64,000 nt of DNA from Candidatus Fermentibacteraceae bacterium (GTDB lineage Bacteria; Fermentibacterota; Fermentibacteria; Fermentibacterales; JCC-6). The notes beneath the pieces were generated by a model. That model saw only the letters and a program-made list of their open reading frames with translations. It made no database searches and was not told the origin of the DNA. The stretch lies in contig JAMOUX010000026.1 in assembly GCA_027067855.1 (NCBI GenBank), positions 80,473 to 144,472 on the forward strand. The letters run 5' to 3'. The number at the start of each line of letters is the position of its first letter. The stretch's first letter is position 1. Made by a program: the position numbers and the translations under genes. Below, piece after piece: positions 40,633 through 47,558 of this stretch.

Positions 40633-40723
40633 TGGCGGAGGGGGTGGGATTCGAACCCACGGACCTCAAGAAGAGGTCAACGGTTTTCGAGACCGTCCCG
40701 TTCAACCGCTCCGGCACCCCTCC
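40633..40723 (-). tRNA. tRNA-Ser(CGA)
   Basis: Class II tRNA on the minus strand: acceptor GGAGGGG/CCCCTCC, anticodon stem ACGGT/ACCGT with loop CTCGAAA (anticodon CGA), a long variable arm with stem GACCTC/GAGGTC, T arm GGTTCGAATCC, discriminator G and encoded CCA at 40633-40635. Confidence 0.95.
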
Positions 40724-40881: not shown

Positions 40882-41703
40882 TTGAAAAAGACAGACGCAA
40901 TTTTCGCTGCGCTGGCCATTTCATTCCTGGCGGTGTCCTGCCTTCCCGGAGAGAATCCACCGGGCATAGGTCCCGATCTCAACACGGTTCTCCTGGTGGA
41001 TACGGGGCCCACTTACGGTGAGCTCGCTCCGGGTACGTCGTCGTCTTTTTCCCTCAGGTGGACGCCGGCGGAGGATGCCGAATGGTACGACGTCAGAATA
41101 TCGCCCTATCCTATAGACGAGAATACGTGGGATCAGGCCCTGCGGATAGACTCGGTACCCGCCGTGGATACCACCGAAATGGTTGTTCAGGTCCAGGTGC
41201 AGCCCGAGGTTTACCGGAACACCTGCATCGCCTGCGGATTGTGTGTCAAAGCCTGCCCGCAGAATGCCATAACCCTGGTGGATGGTAAAGCCCTGATAGA
41301 CCTGGGGAAATGTACGGCCTGCGGTCAGTGCGTCGAGGTTTGTCCCGTAAACGCCGTCGCCGACAGCAGGTTCGGCCAGGCGTACTATTTCGCGGTAAGG
41401 GCTATGGGTCCCGGGAATACCTGGTCCGAGGTGATATCCACGGATGCCAGGTACAGGCTCAGGTACATGAACAACAAGCAGTGGTGCGGAGATTGCGCCA
41501 CCGAGTGTTACATACTTCTCGATTCCTGCGGTCCCGGATGTCCCGTGGACGCCATCTGGTTCTCCCCTGACTGGAGTATCCCGGGAGAAGACTCGGGGCT
41601 AATTCACATTGACTACGACAAGTGTATAGACTGCGGGCAGTGTTTCATACAATGCCACCAGTACGGGCTTTGGTCTATTATGAAGGAGGTTGTGAAAGAA
41701 TGA
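40882..41703 (+). CDS. Exported lipoprotein with FN3-like fold and two dicluster-ferredoxin modules
   Basis: 273 aa. TTG start at 40882, seven bases after AAGGAG, opening a lipoprotein signal with Cys20 (FLAVSC; Ala at -3 is unusual). Residues about 45-110 and 155-190 resemble the two halves of a fibronectin-III fold (WTPAEDAEWYDVRIS and YYFAVRAMGPGNTWSEV), and between them sits a ferredoxin with CIACGLCVKACP and CTACGQCVEVCP. A second Fe-S module follows: CGDCATEC..CGPGCP and CIDCGQCFIQC. Up to four [4Fe-4S] clusters outside the cytoplasm. First of five overlapping or abutting genes; the next start overlaps by ATGA. Confidence 0.8.
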   Translation: MKKTDAIFAALAISFLAVSCLPGENPPGIGPDLNTVLLVDTGPTYGELAPGTSSSFSLRWTPAEDAEWYDVRISPYPIDENTWDQALRIDSVPAVDTTEMVVQVQVQPEVYRNTCIACGLCVKACPQNAITLVDGKALIDLGKCTACGQCVEVCPVNAVADSRFGQAYYFAVRAMGPGNTWSEVISTDARYRLRYMNNKQWCGDCATECYILLDSCGPGCPVDAIWFSPDWSIPGEDSGLIHIDYDKCIDCGQCFIQCHQYGLWSIMKEVVKE

Positions 41704-42200
41704 AGATCCTGACGACGGCGGTGTTCCTGTTCTGGACCGCCTCTGCTTTCGCATCGGTCGTGTTCACCCAGAATGAAGATGGCGGGCTGTTGGAATGGGA
41801 TGCTGTCGAAGGAGATTACGAGAGCCTTGTCATCAGGGCCGGAGATACCGTGTACGATCCCGATGACGATGCCCGATGGGGAGCCCTCGTTGTTACCGTG
41901 AAACCCGATGAGGACGGGATTTTCCCCGACTCGGTCCAACTTTCTCCTTCCTATATCGTGGACAAGAGCAAGTGTATAGCCGACGGTCTCTGCGTGGAAG
42001 CCTGTCCCACGGGGGCGATTTCCGTGGATGCCGACGGCAAAGCGGTCATAGATCCGAACAAGTGCATCGCTTGCGCGATCTGTGTTTCGGTGTGTCCGGT
42101 AAATGCCATATTCACGCCTGATGAAGACATGTTCTACGCCCTTTTCGGTGTCGACTGTGAAGGCGGGGAGGTGTTCCTGCAGGGAGGCGTCGTCGAATGA
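41700..42200 (+). CDS. Exported FN3-like/ferredoxin protein
   Basis: 166 aa. Cleavable signal peptide (about 1-19, TASAFA). As in the previous protein, beta strands (GLLEWDAVEGDYESLVIRAG and, after the clusters, MFYALFGVDCEGGEVF) surround an inserted ferredoxin: CIADGLCVEACP and CIACAICVSVCP. In the first motif the second Cys is replaced by Asp (codon 41982), the arrangement known from Pyrococcus furiosus ferredoxin, which gives a labile fourth iron. ATGA overlap upstream and downstream; GGAGG is 13 bases before the ATG. Confidence 0.8.
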   Translation: MKILTTAVFLFWTASAFASVVFTQNEDGGLLEWDAVEGDYESLVIRAGDTVYDPDDDARWGALVVTVKPDEDGIFPDSVQLSPSYIVDKSKCIADGLCVEACPTGAISVDADGKAVIDPNKCIACAICVSVCPVNAIFTPDEDMFYALFGVDCEGGEVFLQGGVVE

Positions 42201-42436
42201 TGACCCGCAAGGCGGTCGCCGTGGCCTGCATATTGTTTCTAGCAGCGGCGGCGGCCTTTGCCGGGGGTATCACCTTCAGGGTGGATCGTGCCTCCTGTAC
42301 CGGTTGTGGCGACTGTGCGTCCGTTTGTCCCGTGGGGGCGGTGGAGCTGGTGGACGGTAAATCCCATATAGACCCGTATAAGTGCATCGGCTGCGGTTTT
42401 TGCCATGGAGTGTGCGGTTATGACGCGATACGCTGA
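42197..42436 (+). CDS. Minimal exported 2[4Fe-4S] ferredoxin
   Basis: 79 aa (78 if the second ATG is used). Signal peptide about 1-23 (ACILFLAAAAAFA), then only a bacterial-type ferredoxin: CTGCGDCASVCPVGA and CIGCGFCHGVCGYDA. The usual Pro after the last cysteine is Gly in the second motif. Extracytoplasmic electron carrier by position; partners are presumably the flanking ferredoxins. Overlaps both neighbours. Confidence 0.85.
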   Translation: MMTRKAVAVACILFLAAAAAFAGGITFRVDRASCTGCGDCASVCPVGAVELVDGKSHIDPYKCIGCGFCHGVCGYDAIR

Positions 42437-42677
42437 ATACCTGCTGCCGGTTGTGGTGGTAGTAGTAGGCCTGGTGTTACTGGCCGGCTGCCGGGGTCCG
42501 GTGGAATCCACGCAACTCGTGGTTGACACCGACAGCTGTCTCGGTTGCGGCGAATGTGTTGAAGTATGCCCCTACGGCGCGATAGAAATAATAGATGGTG
42601 ATGCCGTGATAGATCCTTCACTTTGCCATTTCTGCTACAGGTGCGTGGAGCAATGCCCGGAGGGAGCGATATACTGA
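42420..42677 (+). CDS. Lipoprotein 2[4Fe-4S] ferredoxin
   Basis: 85 aa. A long hydrophobic signal ends in a perfect lipobox, LLAGC, so the protein should be membrane-anchored by lipid at Cys24. The mature part is a small linker plus ferredoxin with CLGCGECVEVCPYGA and CHFCYRCVEQCPEGA. ATG at 42420 lies 17 bases inside the preceding gene, with GGAG 9 bases upstream. Overlaps the barrel gene by one base (TGATG). Confidence 0.83.
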   Translation: MTRYAEYLLPVVVVVVGLVLLAGCRGPVESTQLVVDTDSCLGCGECVEVCPYGAIEIIDGDAVIDPSLCHFCYRCVEQCPEGAIY

Positions 42678-43882
42678 TGAATATCGTAACATTGCTTCTG
42701 GCGGTACTTCCTCTTACGGCAGCGGGCTCCGCGCTGGATGGTTGGCTGGACGCTGCGACCGGCGGTGACAGCCTTTCCCCGGGGATGGGAGTCATCGAGG
42801 GGGGAGGCATGCTCCGGGGAGATTTATGGAACCTGACGGTACAAGGAAAGTACGTTGTTACGGACACTACCGAGATAACACGGAAGTTTCTGGATGAATA
42901 CTCGGTGATCGACGTGAATTTCAAAGTGCGGGAAGGGGCCACTATCGTGAACCCCGACCTGGTGTGGATCATGGATTTCAACGAGAAAACTCCGAAAATG
43001 GTCCTTCCCGACCAGGGAGGAATGGCGTTCAGACATGGTTATTACAGACCGGGCCTTGGTCTGGAAACCGCGTTTGTAGAGAATTTCAGGTTGAACATGA
43101 GGGGCCTGTACTGGAACCTGGCGGCCGAGCACGAAGACGGGAGCGACCTGGGCTGGACCGGTTTCATGTTGGATGGCCGGATTACGTGGGACTCGCCGTG
43201 GAACACCTCATTCCAGGCGGGTGCGGTTACCCGTAAGTCCGCCATCAACAAAACGGGATACGCCAAGACTTGGAACAGGTACGACGTGGGCGTGTCACTC
43301 CACCCGGGAGGAATGCCCAGGAATATGTATCTTACAGGTGGAGTCACCTATTCCGTTTACGACGGCAGGGATTTCCTTCAAAGGGACATACCGGACAGAC
43401 TGATCGCCAGGATCAGGCTCATGCAGATGGGTGTGCTTCCTTCGGTGACGGCCGGCACCAGCTTCGAGTCGGTTTTCGATTTTGATGGAAACGAAATCCG
43501 CATGGCCTGTACCGCCCTGGAGGCTGGGTTGATATGGAAATTCATGAAAAAAGCCCGGGTTCCATCCACGGCCATCCTCTCGGGCAAACTGACCAGATCG
43601 GCCATCAGAACGCAGACCGCACGTTTGTTTACGAGAGTGCACGTTTTCCGTGGTCTGTCGGTGCTCGCGCAGGCGCGGGCGAGGATTTCACCTACGTACG
43701 TGGCGGGAGCCGGTCCGTACAGAAAGAGTTACGTGGCGGGGCCGGGACTGGAATACAGGTTCGGGAACAAAATCAGGATCTGGGGTATTATCGAGCACGA
43801 GAGGACTAACCTGACCGGTAACGAAAACTGGTGGAGGATAAAGTCCGGACTGGAGTTGTACCCCGGAACCGTTTCTTTCTAA
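42677..43882 (+). CDS. Outer-membrane beta-barrel encoded with exported ferredoxins
   Basis: 401 aa. Signal peptide about 1-18; the mature chain consists of many amphipathic strands (RLNMRGLYWNLAAEH, NMYLTGGVTYSVYDG, KIRIWGIIEHERTNL) with glycine-rich turns and ends in Phe (GTVSF), as BAM substrates do. No plug, TonB box or haem motif. Starts one base inside the lipoprotein-ferredoxin stop, with GGAGGGAGC upstream, so it is translationally coupled to four ferredoxin genes. A porin-conduit role is inference. Confidence 0.65.
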   Translation: MNIVTLLLAVLPLTAAGSALDGWLDAATGGDSLSPGMGVIEGGGMLRGDLWNLTVQGKYVVTDTTEITRKFLDEYSVIDVNFKVREGATIVNPDLVWIMDFNEKTPKMVLPDQGGMAFRHGYYRPGLGLETAFVENFRLNMRGLYWNLAAEHEDGSDLGWTGFMLDGRITWDSPWNTSFQAGAVTRKSAINKTGYAKTWNRYDVGVSLHPGGMPRNMYLTGGVTYSVYDGRDFLQRDIPDRLIARIRLMQMGVLPSVTAGTSFESVFDFDGNEIRMACTALEAGLIWKFMKKARVPSTAILSGKLTRSAIRTQTARLFTRVHVFRGLSVLAQARARISPTYVAGAGPYRKSYVAGPGLEYRFGNKIRIWGIIEHERTNLTGNENWWRIKSGLELYPGTVSF

Positions 43883-43931
43883 CGCGCCCGGGACAGCTTC
43901 CGAGCCGGATACATTGAAAGGATTCCTTCCG

Positions 43932-45032
43932 ATGGACGGTTTCGGAACGGGCCTGACCCTGGGGCTTGCGACTGGTACGGCGTGCTTGGCTTCCTGCGGA
44001 CCCATCTACGCGACCTACCTGTTGGCCGAAAAACGCACGGGATTCCAATCCCTTTGGATAATCCTGAAACTCAATGCCGGACGTTTTTTGGCATATGCGT
44101 TGTTTGGCGCCATGGTAGGCCTGTTGGGAGGAAGTATACCGGTCAGGCTGAGGATGGCGCTGGCTTTTTCGGGGTACGTCCTTTTTTCCCTTTACCTGTT
44201 TCTTTCGGTGGTGAGGGTAAAAAGGACCTGTTCCGGGTGTAGTAACGGTAGATTTCTGAAACTAACGAAGAGCCCTTTCCTCCTGGGCATACTCACCGGC
44301 TTTTCCATATGCCCGGCCTTCCTTATCGCCGTTACCAGGGCTTTCGATTCCGGAGGCCCCGTCAACGGTGCCCTGATGTTCAGCGGTTTCTTTTTCGGAA
44401 CCACGGTTTACATGTTGCCCTTCGCCCTCTTCGGCCTGCTTACCGTGCAGACCTGGATCACGAAGGCGGCCAGGGTGCTCGCCGTGATCGTGGCGGTGTA
44501 CTTCCTTGCCCTGGGCATTAGGGGTTTTGTAACCTGGCTGAACATGCGGGAGCCTTATGGAGAAGAGACGTCCGGAAGTTACGTCTTTTCCGTGGAGGAC
44601 GCGGATACTCTTTACATACTGACGTTCGGGAACGATATGGATGACAAGGGAGCCCTTCTGGCCGGGGACATGCCGGCGGATCTCCTGCCTCCGGTGGTGG
44701 TGGTGGAGGTATCCGGGGAAAGTTTCGGCGAAGCGGTGGAGTCCATACCGGAACTTTCCGCAGTGATAACGCCTCCATGGGTTGATTCCAGGTACGAAGC
44801 GGCGGATACGGAGCCGTGGCAGGATTCCCTGGCGGCGATGATCCGGAAGCGGAGATTCCGGACGTTTGCCGTGGAATATCAGCCGTACTGCCTGGACAGA
44901 GCCCGGGGAATCGAGTCTTTCCTCCATAGGTACGATTTCAAAATCGATCCGGATTCGGGATTCATCTTTCTCATGCTGAATCCCTTGGCCTGCGACCCCC
45001 TGGACTGTTCGACCTGCGGTATTCCCCATTGA
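43932..45032 (+). CDS. DsbD/TauE-like (DsbD_2) membrane protein with C-terminal exported Cys tail
   Basis: 366 aa. The first about 205 residues hold six membrane segments with TGTACLASCGPIYATYLLAE and GFSICPAFLIAVTRAF, the cysteine-bearing helices of the DsbD_2/UreH-like family that passes reducing power or sulfur/metal across the membrane. A cluster CSGCS follows the third helix. The soluble C-terminal domain ends in CDPLDCSTCGIPH. Start taken at 43932 (AAAGGA 9 bases ahead); TTG at 43914 is possible. Forty-nine bases after the barrel gene, so likely the sixth gene of that operon. Confidence 0.7.
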   Translation: MDGFGTGLTLGLATGTACLASCGPIYATYLLAEKRTGFQSLWIILKLNAGRFLAYALFGAMVGLLGGSIPVRLRMALAFSGYVLFSLYLFLSVVRVKRTCSGCSNGRFLKLTKSPFLLGILTGFSICPAFLIAVTRAFDSGGPVNGALMFSGFFFGTTVYMLPFALFGLLTVQTWITKAARVLAVIVAVYFLALGIRGFVTWLNMREPYGEETSGSYVFSVEDADTLYILTFGNDMDDKGALLAGDMPADLLPPVVVVEVSGESFGEAVESIPELSAVITPPWVDSRYEAADTEPWQDSLAAMIRKRRFRTFAVEYQPYCLDRARGIESFLHRYDFKIDPDSGFIFLMLNPLACDPLDCSTCGIPH

Positions 45033-45438
45033 GCGTGGATGATATCATACAGAAGACGAGTTTCACGGGGTGAGTCGTTTCGGATTCGGCAGGGTTCTTC
45101 GGGAGTTGACGGATGCCCGGTGTGTTGTCCGGGGGGCTGGGAACGTGGAACCGGGGAAGCTGGGAATGCCGCTGACGGCGCTTTGAGATTCGGTATCCCT
45201 TCCCCTTGACCCGGCGGAAATATGCCGCCGGGGAAACCCCGCCCCAGTTTCGGCACATCACGTAAAATAAACTCCGGTCGGGACCTGTGGAGGTCGGCAC
45301 GAATATCGTCCTGTCGTTCCGGATGTCTCTTTTCGGGATCGGGATTTATTTCTTTCCATGTATATATCTGTTTTCATGAGAGCGGCGCGGAAAAATTTTA
45401 CAGGGATGGCGACCGGGGCCGGGAGAGAAGGCCCGCAG
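45033..45438. other. Convergent intergenic region with strong hairpin
   Basis: 406 bp between two converging stops. It holds a perfect 8-bp GC-rich hairpin (CCCGGCGG 45210-45217, CCGCCGGG 45225-45232) without a T-run on either side, perhaps a transcription pause or rho-assisted terminator. An AT-rich patch (45345-45375) follows. I see no gene, ribosome site with a convincing frame, or known RNA. Confidence 0.45.
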
Positions 45439-47007
45439 CTATGAATCCGCTTCTTCGTCGTCATCGCAGTACGTGGGCAGTCTCATACTGTTTATCCGGT
45501 TCCAGAGTCCGACCCTGCCGAAGAAGCTCAGTATGGCGCCGTAGAAGCAGAGGTACTTGCAGAAGAATCGGGGGAAGAAAATCAGGAAACTCATGGATAT
45601 CACGGCGGCGGCCAGCGAGCCCACTACGAATAAAGAAAACACCGTGTGGAAAGGATCGATGTTACAGAAGAAAGGTTGGAGCGCTATTTTCGGGAAATAC
45701 CCGCTGGTAATCAGCATCGCGAATCCGATGAACAATATGACCAGCAGATATTTCAGCCCGGCAAGGAAGTTGTGTATCCTCCTGGGGATTTTTGGAGGCC
45801 TGGGTACCGGAATCTTGCCCAGTAAATCCTGCAGGGCGCCGAAGGGACAGACCCAGCCGCAATATATCCTGTCGAAGAAGAGGCTCCACAACATCGGCAG
45901 AATCAGTATTCCGATGCCCAGCAAGCCGAGAAATACCAGGCTGGAAGGAAGCATTATGTACTGGATGAGTCCGATGGGGCAGAAACATCCCTGCACGAAG
46001 AAACCGAGAACCAGCAGGGCTATCACCTGGACGGTTACATGGGCGATGGTTCTCTTCTTGCGCATTTTCCTTCCCCTGCCGCAGAGATGCTTTTTCAGCA
46101 GAGTCGATGCTCCCAGGAGCACGAAGGTGGCTGCGAGAATTATGCCGGCCCTTGCCATTCCTCCTCCCCTGGGATTGACACAGCCGTTTTTATCCCGGTA
46201 ATGAGCGCAAAGACGGGTTTCCGGCGTGGGACACGCGATTTCGGGGGGAAGTCCCAGAGGGCAGCCTCCGGCCACCGGAACGAGGCCGTATTCCCGCCCC
46301 GAGACCCTGACGGTATCTTCCCCGGGGAGACCGGGATTGTCGCAGAACCCGTCGCCGTTCGTATCGGTGAAGAAGGCGCAGATCGGAGATTCGACCGCAC
46401 AGGCCTCCTCCGGGGTGAATTTCATGGGACAGTTGATGGAAACGGTCTCCTCCACCACGACCGTGTCCACACGTACCGAGTCCTCCAGCAATTTGACTTG
46501 TATTTTACCGACTATCCTGGACGAATCGGTAACTCTTTCCGTAAATTCCCAGATAACGACGTTGCCGCCGGTAACGGAACTCCTGGGATCCAGGCAGAAC
46601 GGAGCCCCGCAAAAATTGTTCGTTACCTTTACCAGGTCACCTATCACGATAGGCTCGCTGCCGGCTTCCGATTCCTCTTCGGGTTCGGGGACGGAAGGGG
46701 CGGACGATGTATGAGTAGAGGTTTCCCGGGGTGGTTCTTCCATCGGGGAAGGAGGGAATTCATCCGGTTCCGGTGGTGGTTCTTCCTCCGAAACCTCCGG
46801 AATGGTTTCTTCGGCTTCGGGTTCCTCTTCTGCTGCATCTTCGCCGGGTGGTGCGGCGTTGTCGCAACGACCGTCATCGTTTCCGTCATTGAAAAGAGCG
46901 CAAGTGGGATCATCCGCGGGGCACGCCTGGTCGGGTGAATAGCCCAGGGGACATTGTCCCAGGCCGATCGAAGTCACCAACAGAAAGACGATCCCCAAAA
47001 TCTTCAT
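45439..47007 (-). CDS. NapH-like polytopic 4Fe-4S membrane protein with Ca-loop-like repeats
   Basis: 522 aa. Signal peptide, then an exported region of about 290 residues with three related units: CP-x-G/K-x4-ACP...C-A-x-F/Y-x-D-x-N-x-DG-x-CD, the DxNxDGxCD loops resembling calcium-binding thrombospondin-3 or EF loops; the first and second units are separated by an acidic Pro/Glu-rich linker. The C-terminal half is a NapH/NosR-type membrane domain (Fer4_5) with CGWVCPFGALQD and CKYLCFYGAIL motifs, C-X3-C-P pattern. Quinol- or ferredoxin-linked electron transfer is likely. AAAGGTTC before the ATG; promoter with dyad upstream. Confidence 0.8.
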   Translation of the reverse strand: MKILGIVFLLVTSIGLGQCPLGYSPDQACPADDPTCALFNDGNDDGRCDNAAPPGEDAAEEEPEAEETIPEVSEEEPPPEPDEFPPSPMEEPPRETSTHTSSAPSVPEPEEESEAGSEPIVIGDLVKVTNNFCGAPFCLDPRSSVTGGNVVIWEFTERVTDSSRIVGKIQVKLLEDSVRVDTVVVEETVSINCPMKFTPEEACAVESPICAFFTDTNGDGFCDNPGLPGEDTVRVSGREYGLVPVAGGCPLGLPPEIACPTPETRLCAHYRDKNGCVNPRGGGMARAGIILAATFVLLGASTLLKKHLCGRGRKMRKKRTIAHVTVQVIALLVLGFFVQGCFCPIGLIQYIMLPSSLVFLGLLGIGILILPMLWSLFFDRIYCGWVCPFGALQDLLGKIPVPRPPKIPRRIHNFLAGLKYLLVILFIGFAMLITSGYFPKIALQPFFCNIDPFHTVFSLFVVGSLAAAVISMSFLIFFPRFFCKYLCFYGAILSFFGRVGLWNRINSMRLPTYCDDDEEADS

Positions 47008-47481: not shown

Positions 47482-47558
47482 GGTCCGGTAGTTCAATTGG
47501 TTAGAGCACCGGCCTGTCACGCCGGAAGTTGCGAGTTCGAGTCTCGTCCGGACCGCCA
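47482..47558 (+). tRNA. tRNA-Asp(GTC)
   Basis: Acceptor GGTCCGG/CCGGACC, D arm with AATTGGTT loop, anticodon stem CCGGC/GCCGG around CTGTCAC (anticodon GTC), T arm GAGTTCGAGTCTC, discriminator G and encoded CCA (47556-47558). Confidence 0.96.

Follow-up and report, generated by a model that had tools for sequence, protein, structure and literature searches.

The window, a stretch of 64,000 nucleotides from the 1.86 Mb draft genome (98.9% complete) of a Candidatus Fermentibacteraceae bacterium, carries at positions 40882-47007 an operon of six genes on the + strand, F1-F2-F3-F4-barrel-DsbD_2, and a convergent NapH-like gene on the - strand. The first four genes encode predicted exported proteins with ferredoxin motifs, and they are followed by genes for a predicted outer-membrane beta-barrel and a membrane protein of the DsbD_2 family. 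The gene system exists and is conserved, and as far as our searches show it is new in kind. An original prediction, made from the sequence alone, placed seven genes here, and all of them were found in position (Table 1). The reading frames overlap from F1 through the barrel by 4, 4 (1 if F3 starts at 42200), 17 and 1 nt, and the DsbD_2 gene starts 49 bases past the barrel gene.

Operon content

The ferredoxin-type motif C..[CD]..C...C occurs nine times in the operon, three times in F1 and twice each in F2, F3 and F4, which together with one irregular Cys group in F1 agrees with the about ten clusters first claimed. Across the seven window proteins there is only one CXXCH sequence, in F3, where it overlaps a ferredoxin motif, and its His is not kept in other F3 sequences. 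The motif background of the genome itself was taken from the window and six further stretches (about 171 kb of the 1.86 Mb). These contain 17 open reading frames (ORFs) with at least two ferredoxin motifs, 13 of them outside the operon. A signal-peptide script flagged F1, F2, F3 and one ORF of 676 amino acids (aa) as signal-like and scored F4 negative despite its lipobox. The 676-aa ORF, the only signal-like one of the 13 outside the operon, is read as a cytoplasmic HdrA-like protein. Chance ORFs as an explanation were rejected because the genes and their order are kept in 34 loci.

Table 1 Features of the operon and the convergent gene, in window coordinates
Feature	Position	Strand	Description
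F1	40882-41703	+	273 aa predicted lipoprotein, TTG start, lipobox Cys 20
Ferredoxin modelled as nested in the fibronectin-III-like domain of F1	41194-41367	+	F1 residues 105-162
F2	41700-42200	+	166 aa, predicted exported, two ferredoxin motifs
F3	42197 or 42200-42436	+	78 or 79 aa, predicted exported 2[4Fe-4S] ferredoxin
F4	42420-42677	+	85 aa, predicted lipoprotein 2[4Fe-4S] ferredoxin, lipobox Cys 24
Barrel	42677-43882	+	401 aa predicted outer-membrane beta-barrel, C-terminal Phe
DsbD_2-family membrane protein	43932-45032	+	PF13386, E 3.6e-21
NapH/NosR-like membrane protein	45439-47007	-	PF12801, E 3.9e-13

Conservation within Fermentibacterota

The operon is a fixed unit in one order of Fermentibacterota. 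The barrel was found in 36 of the 99 genomes searched, all of this order, and barrel and DsbD_2 protein (E 1e-25) are present in the same 36 of its 42 genomes and absent from the same six (G004, G005, G008, G012, G015 and G026), three of which are at least 90% complete. We examined the loci of 34 of the 35 barrel-bearing relatives, leaving out G002 (split over two contigs), and the six-gene order is present in 27. In the other seven, six contigs begin inside the operon and L054 is without F1 in 2.3 kb upstream. The 27 include loci with F1 cut by the contig end (L034, L056 and L061), a split barrel gene (L041) and a split DsbD_2 gene (L050); the last is interrupted by an in-frame TAG (L050:4231-5393). 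Scanning with the DsbD_2 alignment gave 44 loci, and 32 of them have Fermentibacterota-type names; we take the names Aegiribacteria, Fermentibacteria/Fermentibacter, Fermentibacteraceae, Fermentibacterales, Sabulitectum and Hyd24-12 to belong to this phylum.

The NapH-like gene is convergent in 24 of the 34 loci, 1.3-5.3 kb from DsbD_2, and in the remaining 10 the sequence stops at most 3.2 kb from DsbD_2. In the window the gap is 0.4 kb (45033-45438) and empty of genes that relatives keep. Varying gene sets occupy this interval in L031, L037, L038 and L047; the intervening genes presumably encode a GYSGPKVKSD protein of about 400 aa, a 180-aa CxxC-rich protein, a sodium-symporter-like protein and others.

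Recurrence in other phyla

Among Cloacimonadota the DsbD_2 alignment also matches 41 of 124 genomes, and among Fibrobacterota 9 of 167. We examined 40 of the 41 Cloacimonadota loci (G383 was left out), and four of these had less than 1.5 kb upstream, leaving 36. By a tally made by reading, F3, F4, a barrel candidate and DsbD_2 stand in a row in 27 of the 36, counting L167, whose F3 lies about 0.5 kb before its F4, and L171. The F4 of L182 has no lipobox by pattern, yet aligns with one. The 9 Fibrobacterota genomes hold 11 loci, six with the full core, one (L110) with ferredoxin and DsbD_2, and four with neither ferredoxin nor barrel adjacent. Up to five ferredoxins are encoded in the operon of L157. 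The co-occurrence check that had been proposed for the lipoprotein ferredoxin and the barrel therefore came out positive, with homologues together as one operon in three phyla.

Beside the DsbD_2 gene of the Coatesbacteria locus L114 there is neither ferredoxin nor barrel. In L107, one of the four Fibrobacterota loci just mentioned, an F3-F4-barrel unit (L107:835-2742) lies 7 kb from DsbD_2 on the same contig and has no adjacent DsbD_2 gene, so that a search anchored on DsbD_2 may underestimate the distribution. L162, L173 and L174 share, by eye, another DsbD_2 context without ferredoxins, consisting of NifU-like, peptidase-like and ABC export genes.

Ferredoxin proteins

In sequences sampled from the three phyla, all eight ligand Cys of F3 are invariant (31/31), and seven of the eight in F4 are invariant in 30 sequences, with the eighth kept in 28 and replaced by Asp in L104 and L111. 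The lipobox Cys of F4 is present in 30 of 30. Both proteins have the two C..C..C...C motifs of 2[4Fe-4S] ferredoxins; the ferredoxin fold itself was matched for the F1 module alone. The motifs of F2 span aa 92-132 and the first reads C..D..C...C in the window. At this second position 27 of 31 sequences have Cys and four, including the window, have Asp, and the other seven Cys are invariant (31/31).

For F1, compared among Fermentibacterota only, the lipobox Cys and 16 ligand-type Cys are invariant in all 25 sequences, as is the irregular fourth group (C202, C205, C209 and C220; 25/25), which together with a ferredoxin motif makes up the C-terminal region. The structure model of F1 has a mean predicted local distance difference test (pLDDT) score of 71. 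Residues 105-162 match ferredoxin domains of the clostridial type (best Z 11.0, root-mean-square deviation (rmsd) 1.0, 58 residues aligned; Z 10.6 for 1fca), and residues 29-195 match fibronectin-III (Fn3) domains (Z 9.9, rmsd 2.6) with only 92 residues aligned. F1 models as a ferredoxin nested inside an Fn3 domain. The claim that only ferredoxin motifs follow the signal segments does not apply to F1 and F2; in F1 the Fn3-like domain has a weak Pfam match (fn3, E 0.083) and a clear structure match. The F1-like proteins scanned in L156 and L187 (Cloacimonadota) and L106 (Fibrobacterota), 598-825 aa long, combine clear fn3 domains with ferredoxin modules. Extra F1 copies lie beside the operon in L036, L037 and L050, and a plasmid search with F1 returned eight records, none covering 80% of it.

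Export signals and gene content

A strict test for a positively charged and then hydrophobic start was passed by 30 of 31 F3, 28 of 30 F4 and 19 of 25 F1 sequences. In the phyla outside Fermentibacterota the start codons were chosen by script for signal-like starts, and the F3 and F4 pass counts lean that way. With a positive n-region the ferredoxin would lie outside whether or not the segment is cleaved. Tat is the usual export route for folded Fe-S proteins; as first noted for the window, no twin-Arg signal is conserved across F1, F3 and F4 (RR within the first 12 residues in 6 of 31 F3, 1 of 30 F4 and 1 of 25 F1). Two Fibrobacterota F3 genes (L106:8142-8417 and L193:4773-5042) have Tat-like twin-Arg starts, and the export route, as judged from these N-termini, may differ between phyla.

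Gene content was compared in 43 chosen genomes. Of the 23 Fermentibacterota among them 20 have the operon, the 14 Cloacimonadota all have the core, and so do four of the 6 Fibrobacterota. TatC was found in 22 of 23, 0 of 14 and 5 of 6, respectively. Across all 124 Cloacimonadota it exceeds the cut-off in five, and in none of the 41 with a DsbD_2 homologue, one of which (G350) has a weak match below the cut-off. The evidence here is the pattern, as single absences mean little when genome completeness is not given. The absence of TatC from Cloacimonadota carriers suggests that their ferredoxins leave unfolded by Sec and, if they bind clusters at all, would acquire them outside the cytoplasm. None of the 23 Fermentibacterota and none of the 14 Cloacimonadota has the cytochrome-c assembly family PF01578, which was found in 5 of the 6 Fibrobacterota. 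UbiA, present in 41 of the 43 genomes, was not used as evidence for quinones, as the family is too broad.

Barrel and inner-membrane proteins

The barrel prediction that had been proposed as a check succeeds, with a model of 20 long strands at a mean pLDDT of 85. The top Foldseek row is MtrB (6r2q_B; E 8.4e-8, template modelling score 0.46), a similarity that is not specific and was not used as evidence of membership. MtrB is not among the 50 VIA matches listed, which is equally no evidence; siderophore receptors and porins stand high there by Z, with one siderophore receptor in first place (Z 18.0, rmsd 4.0, 329 residues aligned). Pfam and NCBIfam gave only weak single matches of the barrels to generic barrel families, and none to the MtrB/PioB family at E 0.1 among 32 Fermentibacterota and 25 Cloacimonadota barrels. 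A C-terminal Phe is present in 21 of these 32 and 23 of these 25, and in 0 of 6 Fibrobacterota barrels. Profile comparison links the barrel alignments A1 and A4 at 94% (E 1.2e-7, 301 columns) and A4 and A5 at 97% (145 columns), with 0.4% for the one control, an unrelated outer-membrane protein of the same genome used as a single sequence.

The DsbD_2 domain covers aa 8-192 of its protein, and the C-terminal domain, which ends in a conserved CxxC, is taken to be extracytoplasmic. Of the six transmembrane segments claimed, five are clear in the hydropathy count, while the sixth would be the Cys-bearing first helix. No similar solved structure was found for this protein. The description of the convergent gene product as a NapH-like iron-sulfur protein holds for the Fer4_5 match (PF12801, in two stretches), but the protein has no C..C..C...C motif. 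Its N-terminal part instead has three Cys4 modules (aa 19-48, 193-222 and 249-276), the first two with a D.N.DG-like loop; in 22 sequences 11 of their 12 Cys never vary and the last is 91% conserved. In the whole protein, 19 Cys are conserved in at least 85% of 22 sequences. Its NapH NCBIfam scores are 31.2 and 30.8 bits against cut-offs of 213 and 234, and one Cloacimonadota NapH-like protein reaches 64.5 bits against 213.

The NapH-like protein of this lineage is encoded by a separate convergent gene and has no ferredoxin motifs, whereas in some Cloacimonadota and Fibrobacterota motif-bearing versions are part of the operon. Both Cloacimonadota operons scanned include NapH-like proteins with Fer4_5 and a dicluster domain (weak in L187). 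Directly after DsbD_2, L106 has a NapH-NapG-like fusion and L109, L110 and L193 have a similar Cys-rich protein.

Relation to known systems

The operon is not a member of the porin-cytochrome conduits, as both the haem test and the MtrB-family test fail. It would share with the MtrCAB and Pcc conduits an inner-membrane donor, periplasmic carriers and an outer-membrane barrel beside a redox lipoprotein, but it is without multihaem cytochromes and its barrel has 401 aa and 20 strands, with no MtrB-family match. Flavinylated extracytosolic DsbD/DUF3570/DUF4266 systems, as described in PMC8238504, also have a DsbD-superfamily membrane protein (PF02683 there, PF13386 here), and the proposal made there is that membrane proteins of the DsbD or NapH-like kind supply the exported redox proteins. 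The carriers here are ferredoxins, and ApbE, FMN-binding and DUF3570 gave no match in the window operon proteins or the barrels scanned.

The Fer4_5 NapH-like protein, and the NapH-NapG-like fusion in L106, recall the NapGH quinol dehydrogenase module. The scores here, however, are far below the NapH and NapG cut-offs, the carriers include lipoproteins beside a barrel, and no nitrate reductase was seen in the conserved unit. The clostridial-type 2[4Fe-4S] ferredoxins share the motif and, for the F1 module, the fold, but the proteins here are predicted to be exported, lipidated or nested in an Fn3 domain. Within the open-licence PMC literature (subscription journals and preprints lay outside this scope) we found no description of a comparable operon and no paper on exported or lipoprotein ferredoxins.

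Discussion

To our knowledge, all known outer-membrane electron conduits use multihaem cytochromes. Surveys accordingly seek haem motifs, and bacteria that lack cytochrome assembly are taken to be incapable of extracellular respiration. We lean towards the view that the products of the operon described here form an electron-transfer chain without haem that reaches across the cell envelope. A more specific reading, which we put forward tentatively and with less than even confidence, is that of a haem-free outer-membrane conduit made of ferredoxins, in which the proteins are exported unfolded by Sec, gain their clusters outside and send fermentation electrons out of the cell. The anaerobic phyla using it would be ones in which no cytochrome-c assembly is detected and, for Cloacimonadota, no Tat either. 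The operon conserved in three phyla, the kept lipobox and ligand Cys, the predicted export, the barrel model with MtrB as its top Foldseek row, the NapH-like candidate donors, the Fn3-ferredoxin architecture of F1 and F1-like proteins and the lack of PF01578 in the Fermentibacterota and Cloacimonadota examined support in part the ferredoxin conduit that was originally proposed, whereas conduction through the barrel, its direction and the acceptor, along with the role of DsbD_2 and a surface position of F1, are what we infer.

At the inner membrane of such a chain, a NapH-like protein, or in some Fibrobacterota a NapH-NapG-like one, would pass electrons outward together with the DsbD_2 protein, which would either feed the exported Cys-rich carriers or keep them reduced for cluster insertion. 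Its presence with ferredoxins even where no barrel is found (L110, L180 and L196) suggests that DsbD_2 serves the ferredoxins. F3 and F2 could carry electrons across the periplasm to the lipoprotein F4, which may dock on or in the 20-strand barrel at the outer membrane. By standard barrel geometry, the lumen of a 20-strand barrel is close in size to a small dicluster ferredoxin, and on the model F4 is a possible plug-like occupant. F1 would be the outer redox protein, presenting its ferredoxin on the Fn3 domain, and the electrons would most likely exit to an extracellular acceptor such as a mineral, humics, sulphur or a syntrophic partner, giving fermentation a sink. Outward flow is indicated by the NapH-like proteins in or after the operon, taken with related quinol-linked transfer: NapH-related proteins are thought, according to PMC8238504, to pass electrons across the membrane from a donor such as quinol.

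Several observations weigh against a conduit of this kind. In five of the 36 Cloacimonadota loci (L159, L177, L180, L184 and L186) ferredoxin and DsbD_2 occur with no recognised whole barrel, and in L186 export of the ferredoxin is not visible either; four further loci (L162, L173, L174 and L191) have neither ferredoxin nor barrel adjacent. The barrel-less L110 and the four of 11 Fibrobacterota loci with neither point the same way, as does L196 (G044, outside the order), where an exported ferredoxin with four motifs lies immediately before DsbD_2 and a barrel is missing. TonB and siderophore receptors and porins follow MtrB within about tenfold in the Foldseek results, which leaves the MtrB match unspecific, and the Fibrobacterota and Fermentibacterota barrels have no direct profile match (0.2%). 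The C-terminal Fe-S part of F1 is poorly modelled, and six of 25 F1 sequences fail the strict signal test. The scarcity of TatC is a property of the whole phylum Cloacimonadota and not linked to the operon, and PF01578 is present in three of the four core-bearing Fibrobacterota, where the system is no simple substitute for cytochromes. No known terminal reductase is encoded in the operon. Ferredoxins, moreover, are usually low-potential carriers, unlike haem conduits.

The main rival, which we regard as unlikely though worth serious weight, is reductive uptake or the feeding of a periplasmic reductase: the barrel would admit ferric iron, a corrinoid or polysulphide, the ferredoxins would reduce it in the periplasm or at the outer membrane, and the electrons would stay in the cell. 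Siderophore and cobalamin receptors do rank with the best fold matches to the barrel, but a TonB-receptor Pfam match was found in only one of 25 Cloacimonadota barrels (E 0.00084) and in none of 32 from Fermentibacterota. The loci with ferredoxin and DsbD_2 but no barrel would fit a ferredoxin role independent of the barrel, and PMC8238504 suggests that some DUF3570 flavin clusters take part in iron assimilation. On the other hand, no transporter, substrate-binding protein or reductase was recognised in the conserved unit, and the five ferredoxins of L157 would seem to exceed the needs of a single reductase.

The same barrel-less loci could also be explained if the proteins were Cys-rich scavengers of metal, sulphide or oxygen, or thiol buffers, kept reduced by DsbD_2 in the envelope with no electron chain, and the C..D..C...C motif in the window would be compatible with this. 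We consider it improbable, as thiol buffering does not need 2[4Fe-4S] motif spacing and nearly all ligand Cys to be kept across three phyla, and as the proteins fall into two size classes, of which one is lipidated throughout, with a fixed order next to a barrel. Hardly credible is the reading in which the signal segments are uncleaved anchors, the ferredoxins face the cytoplasm and the barrel is a chance neighbour. Export does rest on sequence heuristics, of which the strict one fails for the six F1 sequences mentioned, but this outcome, named beforehand as one that would overturn the prediction, has against it the invariant lipobox Cys of F1 and F4, and F3-F4-barrel synteny across phyla and the Fn3 domains of F1 likewise argue for an extracytoplasmic location.

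If a ferredoxin-based conduit does exist, it would change the verdict on extracellular respiration for Fermentibacterota and Cloacimonadota, and the assembly of [4Fe-4S] clusters outside the cytoplasm would become a testable question. The F3-F4-barrel-DsbD_2 signature provides a search pattern for further phyla.

Flanking features

The block is flanked by a tRNA-Ser gene (40633-40723, - strand) and a tRNA-Asp gene (47482-47558, + strand). A mobile island between two tRNA genes was considered and rejected; as the gene unit is syntenic across the order, the tRNA genes are taken as ordinary neighbours.

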